Assembly (NCBI GenBank): GCA_031269345.1
Contig: JAISZH010000052.1
Span: 1-33,266, forward strand
DNA length: 33,266 nucleotides
Direction: 5' to 3'
Source of the DNA: Desulfovibrio sp.
Lineage (GTDB): Bacteria > Desulfobacterota > Desulfovibrionia > Desulfovibrionales > Desulfovibrionaceae
Of this stretch, positions 22,367 through 22,610 are shown piece after piece; position 1 is the first letter of the stretch, and each line of letters begins with the position of its first letter. Made by a program: the position numbers and the translations under genes. The notes beneath the pieces were generated by a model. That model had not been told where the DNA came from. It ran no database searches and worked only from the letters and a program-made list of their open reading frames with translations.

Positions 22367-22486
22367 AGCAGTTCACGAATGAAACGAGTGAACCGCTCTG
22401 CAAGGATTTGCGGGCAAATCCTTGCCGCGAAACAGGAGCAGGCGGGCTTTGCCCGCCGTAAGCGAACTGTTTCAAGCGTTAATTGC
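22367..22486 (+). repeat. Interspersed element family 1, copy C
   Basis: AGCAGTTCACGAATGAAACGAGTGAACCGCTCTGCAAGGATTTGCGGGCAAATCCTTGCCGCGAAACAGGAGCAGGCGGGCTTTGCCCGCCGTAAGCGAACTGTTTCAAGCGTTAATTGC. Confidence 0.9.
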
Positions 22487-22491
22487 CCCAG

Positions 22492-22610
22492 CGCAGTTCA
22501 CGAATGAAACGAGTGAACCGCTCTGCAAGGATTTGCATGCAAATCCTTGCCGCGAAACAGGAGCAGGCGGGTTTTGCCCGCCGTAGGCGAACTGTTTCAA
22601 GTTGCTCTGG
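22492..22610 (+). repeat. Interspersed element family 1, copy D
   Basis: Tandem near-identical copy of C, 125-bp period. Confidence 0.9.

Follow-up and report, generated by a model that had tools for sequence, protein, structure and literature searches.

Six copies of a three-hairpin repeat

The window analysed here is a stretch of 33,266 nucleotides from a Desulfovibrio genome, in which six copies of an interspersed repeat lie among genes that include htpG, a lipase-like ORF and an ORF for a TPR protein. All six copies had been predicted from the sequence, and each was found at the expected position or a few bases from it. Copies A (2681–2809, minus strand; covariance-model match 142.2 bits) and B (2807–2935, minus strand; 132.6 bits with nhmmer and 139.1 bits with the covariance model in the genome search) are in tandem, with the junction GCTCCAGAGC. 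The ORF caller runs the TPR-protein ORF (959–2959, minus strand) through both of them, and the N-terminal ~90 residues of that ORF are probably repeat DNA rather than gene. Copy C (22363–22490, plus strand; 152.9 bits with the covariance model) directly follows htpG, and its tandem partner D (22488–22609, plus strand; identified by nhmmer at 115.6 bits and by alignment) has a short deletion near the 3′ end. These four copies are of type 1, and in the tandems the terminal dinucleotide is common to both neighbours. Copy E (32871–32997, plus strand; 127.7 bits) is a type-2 element, with hairpin 1 formed by GAGCGTGTTAAC/GTTAACACGCTC and hairpin 3 by GAGATGC/GCATCTC. Copy F (12216–12341, plus strand; 79.4 bits), also of type 2 but diverged, lies at the 3′ end of the lipase-like ORF. 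With the covariance model, which was trained on 54 copies from the home genome, the E-values of copies A, C, E and F range from 2.9e-41 to 8e-21. The htpG gene itself contains in-frame 33-bp tandem repeats at 20525–20706, which are predicted to lengthen the charged linker of the protein.

The element is ~127 bp long, non-coding, and has TA at both termini. It comprises hairpin 1, a conserved hairpin 2 (GCAAGGATTTGC..GCAAATCCTTGC) and hairpin 3, in which a 7-bp outer stem encloses an inner one whose type-1 sequence is GGCGGGC/GCCCGCC. The original prediction placed the copies correctly and described them by their hairpins; the element reaches beyond these, beginning TAGAGC(A/G) and ending GCTCTA or GCYATA. 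Terminal inverted repeats of the form TAGAGCA..TT...AA..TGCTCTA are present, imperfect in type 1 of the home genome and clearer in its relatives. A few chimaeras in the home genome (L052, L054, L058, L049 and L051) have a type-1 5′ half and a type-2 3′ half, and their hairpin 3 is broken. In line with the prediction, in which no named repeat family was recognised, the window gave no match to any Rfam family at the gathering threshold.

The description of copy E stands, with the correction that it is directly preceded by a related element of 151 bp (32723–32873, plus strand), the two having one TA in common. This belongs to a second family of ~150 bp, with ends similar to those of the main element (AGAGCAATTTCA...GTAAAATGCTATA) and a different interior. 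There are at least 40 further copies in the home genome and family-2-like copies in relatives. A second copy in the window (23621–23771, minus strand) forms an inverted repeat with the first (90%), its 5′ end partly degraded. Another interspersed palindromic repeat (TCAGCCGAAAACCACGCTTTTCGGCTGAC...) occurs at 4232–4270 and 12348–12386, and similar text is found beside several copies of the element in the home genome. A short palindrome TAGTACGCTGTAACATTTAAA...GCGTACTA, at about 1940–1990 of L104 and in the flanks of L011, L030 and L197, is possibly another TA-inserted element.

Copy number, insertion and turnover

How general is the element? The home genome (G000) is a MAG of 2.63 Mb in 203 contigs, 92% complete, and a covariance-model search of it found at least 58 copies. 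Among the best 40 of 259 and 231 BLAST candidates, many copies are 93–98% identical and several lie at contig ends. Twenty 20-kb stretches of the large contigs contain 37 family-1 and 14 family-2 matches in 400 kb, which extrapolates to a rough estimate of ~240 and ~90 copies genome-wide. Of these 51 sampled matches 32 are intergenic, though ORFs make up 88% of the sample, so that the element favours intergenic DNA. The expectation of further copies in relatives was also borne out: by covariance-model searches each of the 15 genomes of the genus contains the repeat, as do five others of the family, most abundantly the out-of-genus G034 (11 matches). In the same kind of search none of 24 genomes from other families of the order carried it, and the phages and plasmids searched gave no match. 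The GTDB r220 records that carry the element, Im510_bin30, Roe453_bin138 and Ct408_bin78 among them, are MAGs of the Desulfovibrio type; the isolate naming, together with published termite gut metagenome work, suggests that these MAGs come from termite guts.

The flanks of the copies point to insertion at TA. Among 92 single copies the element starts with TA in 76 and ends with TA in 69, and no longer target duplication, up to 9 bp, was seen. The target-site duplication is the 2-bp TA itself, as observed at three empty sites, one of them orthologous and two paralogous. At locus L009 of the home genome the sequence reads GGCAGCTT-TA[element]TA-GTGTCTGAAGG, and the empty site in the sister genome G006 (L320) reads GGCAGATT-TA-GTGTCTGAAGG. 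The copies at L182 and L148 are inserted at TA inside family-2-like repeats, of which several uninterrupted paralogues have a single TA. For the G006 copy at L324:2081, the matching DNA of the home genome reads GCGGCA-AG-GACGG.

Insertion polymorphism is seen between the sister species. The htpG site of copies C and D is empty in G006, as is the site of copy F. The atpD–atpC interval contains an element in both sisters, and the junction lacks it in all seven readable relatives (G001, G003, G004, G005, G008, G011 and G012). In the home genome the ancestral neighbour of htpG, which adjoins it in G006, is now on another contig (L015, at the start of G000:C144), beside two copies of the element, so that both breakpoints of at least one genome rearrangement are marked by copies. 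The proposal of an interspersed mobile element is borne out.

At three sites occupied in both sisters (L044/L317, L020/L324 and L002/L330), the flanks and orientation are the same and the subfamilies differ in all three, a small number on which to base this observation. Ectopic conversion is one candidate explanation; another is that a new copy inserted at a terminal TA and the resident one was then lost.

A probable IS630-family partner

A search for DDE_3 across the genus located a candidate partner for the element. In the sister genome, G006:C41:1-998 (L251) is an intact IS630-family element of 998 bp with two overlapping ORFs, bounded by TAGAGCATTTTAACTTTG...CAAAGTTAAAATGCTCTA and having 21 identical terminal bases at its two ends. 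Its orfB matches the NCBIfam IS630 model (NF033545) at 127.5 bits, against a cut-off of 100, and Pfam DDE_3 (PF13358) at 111.7. An intact relative of 995 bp is present in G034, with a transposase 83% identical to that of G006; its flanks match a nearby uninterrupted paralogous site, CCCTC-AA-GGGTAAG, save for TA/AA at the site itself. G012 has a further relative, whose right end TAGAGCATTTTGACTTT resembles the repeats of that genome, and fragments are found in G000, G004 and G005.

The ends of the repeat resemble those of the IS. In G004 the left ends match at 21.8 of 26 positions and the right ends at 21.0 of 26, and the left-end alignment scores 18.4 compared with 2.6 for shuffled ends. The type-1 ends of the home genome are less IS-like, matching at about 15–16 of 26. 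Over 55 copies the 5′ end of the repeat is closer to the left end of the IS in 29 and to its right end in 11, and the 3′ end is closer to the right end in 36 and to the left end in 18. No counterpart of hairpin 2 or of most of the interior was seen in the IS. In the 92% complete home genome we found no intact partner IS, only a DDE fragment at C17:11538-11693; an intact copy could be missing from the assembly, because this is broken at repeats.

Other candidates for the partner were rejected. The two DDE_3 (PF13358) genes of the home genome lack TAGAGC ends, and when terminal inverted repeat motifs were paired around ORFs, the candidates listed looked like ordinary host ORFs. A different DDE_3 gene of the home genome, at the contig end near position 1384 of L069 (G000:C148), adjoins TAGTGTCCTGACA.

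We consider it very probable that the element is a MITE, a non-autonomous DNA transposon mobilized in trans by a transposase of the IS630 family (Tc1/mariner superfamily). Mobilization by the partner IS is suggested by the similarity of the ends, and cut-and-paste chemistry would be expected from the IS630/Tc1 family as a whole. The IS630 transposase would bind the ~26-bp ends of the element (TAGAGCATTTTAACTTTGAAA-like), move it and insert it at a TA, which would become duplicated, and the hairpins would be inherited from the source copies. The three sites at which the sister species carry different subfamilies are not explained by simple transposition, and we count them against this reading, together with the missing intact partner in the home genome, the less IS-like type-1 ends there and the interior without a visible counterpart in the IS. 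We would put forward only tentatively, as an unlikely extension, that the fold itself is selected in the life cycle of the element, as ssDNA/cruciform or as RNA, and that younger subfamilies take the place of resident copies on the spot, between the same two TAs, so that the family would evolve by site-preserving turnover in addition to new insertion.

Covariation of the stems and comparison with known systems

Copies A–D and copy E were predicted to differ by paired changes in their stems. This is real and extends through the genus, with statistically significant covariation. When the arms were located by flanking anchors independent of structure, the paired fraction was 0.889 for hairpin 1, compared with 0.796 after shuffling (z 9.9), and 0.746 for the outer stem of hairpin 3, compared with 0.623 (z 6.7). 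Among the stem pairs are GAAACAG/CTGTTTC, GAAATGC/GCATTTC, GAGATTG/CAATCTC, GAGATGC/GCATCTC, GAAATTA/TAATTTC and CAAATAG/CTATTTG. In an alignment of 52 diverse copies to the named structure, 94.0% of stem cells are paired, compared with 84.2% on shuffling and 30–43% with slid partners. Both sides have changed in 22 of 37 stem pairs (12.8 expected) and there are 202 doubly changed cells (66.0 expected), these being counts of cells across copies rather than of events on a tree, with copy relatedness partly controlled. None of 500 shuffles reached the observed pairing, number of both-sided pairs or number of doubly changed cells. Because the pattern by which many of the loci were found demands hairpin 2, the counts for that hairpin are biased. 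Single copies also fold much more strongly than shuffled sequence, with z between −3.8 and −9.2.

In 35 young copies from the home genome, with polymorphic columns excluded, the departure from consensus is 3.1% in stems and 5.7% at unpaired positions. Of the singly changed stem cells 45 are broken and 37 remain paired, and six cells are doubly changed and paired. Since broken pairs outnumber compensated cells, individual inserted copies decay. As the young copies keep their broken pairs, selection or self-templated repair would act on the source copies and not on each insertion. Either the source copies are selected, or one arm of a hairpin templates the repair of the other. With low confidence we regard it as somewhat more likely that the fold renders insertions close to and within operons tolerable, or protects the RNA or DNA of the element, than that the hairpins template themselves.

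Covariation could arise without selection if hairpin-templated repair, by quasipalindrome correction or template switching, rewrote one arm from the other. The copy at L046:250-377 of the home genome has an inverted hairpin-1 loop, the expected product of template switching or hairpin flipping, and individual young copies are not conserved. The arms of hairpin 2 are nearly invariant, however, an observation biased by the pattern with which loci were found, and several hairpins covary within the same lineages, which would require repeated events. On balance templated repair is a minority explanation, though a serious one. It is rather less probable that the stems covary through selection on an RNA function, the repeat being a structured RNA or mRNA element, acting in stability, processing or attenuation, that has spread and been kept for the benefit of the host. 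The covariation is strong, the folds are stable, and the copy between atpD and atpC is probably co-transcribed; yet the young copies often have broken pairs (45, against 6 compensated cells), the sister lacks the element at orthologous sites, and Rfam is unmatched. The ratio of G-U to A-C among distinct variants, examined as a sign of selection on the RNA strand, is 42:18 in hairpin 1 and 11:13 in hairpin 3, with no consistent direction. Least probable by far is an element of the REP/BIME or IS200/IS605 kind, mobilized by a hairpin-recognizing Y1 (RAYT) transposase, where the palindromic, intergenic and tandem copies and the Y1_Tnp genes of several relatives are outweighed by IS630-matching ends, by a TA duplication, which Y1 elements are not known to make and which already contradicts this reading, and by the lack of any match to Y1_Tnp (PF01797) in the 92% complete home genome.

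With hundreds of copies, several subfamilies, good empty sites and, in the sister genomes, a probable partner of the IS630 family, the element opens a long-standing question to test: whether selection acts on the folds of bacterial MITEs, and at which stage. It further accounts for one class of assembly breaks and annotation artefacts in Desulfovibrio MAGs from insect guts. We found nothing relevant on compensatory change in IS630-type MITEs, within a partial coverage of the literature.

Among known systems, REP/BIME sequences are likewise palindromic interspersed repeats, defined as palindromes of 20–40 bp with a GTAG or CGTC tag (PMC3733652). Mobilization of this type, a lead given in the original prediction, is not supported for a ~127-bp unit ending in TA, with a TA duplication and IS630-like ends, in a 92% complete genome that gave no Y1 transposase match. 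ERIC/RU-1 of the enterobacteria is an intergenic palindromic repeat of the same size, about 127 bp, and is regarded as a MITE (PMC10969869, PMC2759123). A search of 20,395 E. coli records gave no nucleotide match to the present element at E 1e-5, and our data show it solely in genomes of the Desulfovibrionaceae type. MITEs to which a partner IS has been assigned have precedents in RUP and Nezha (PMC3049150). Nezha of the cyanobacteria, with its ISNpu3-like partner (PMC3049150), was similarly assigned through common terminal inverted repeats; its description sets it apart in host group and sequence. RUP of Streptococcus pneumoniae is a 107-bp repeat with ends like those of IS630-Spn1 (PMC3049150), and the two have in common small size, structure, ~100 or more copies and ends resembling a resident IS630-family IS. 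Unlike RUP as described, the present element has a Desulfovibrio host, a length of ~127 bp, three serial hairpins, several subfamilies per genus and stem covariation. We classify it as a new IS630-type MITE family, whose unusual features are the covariation, an unusually clear conservation of fold, and the site-preserving change of subfamily.
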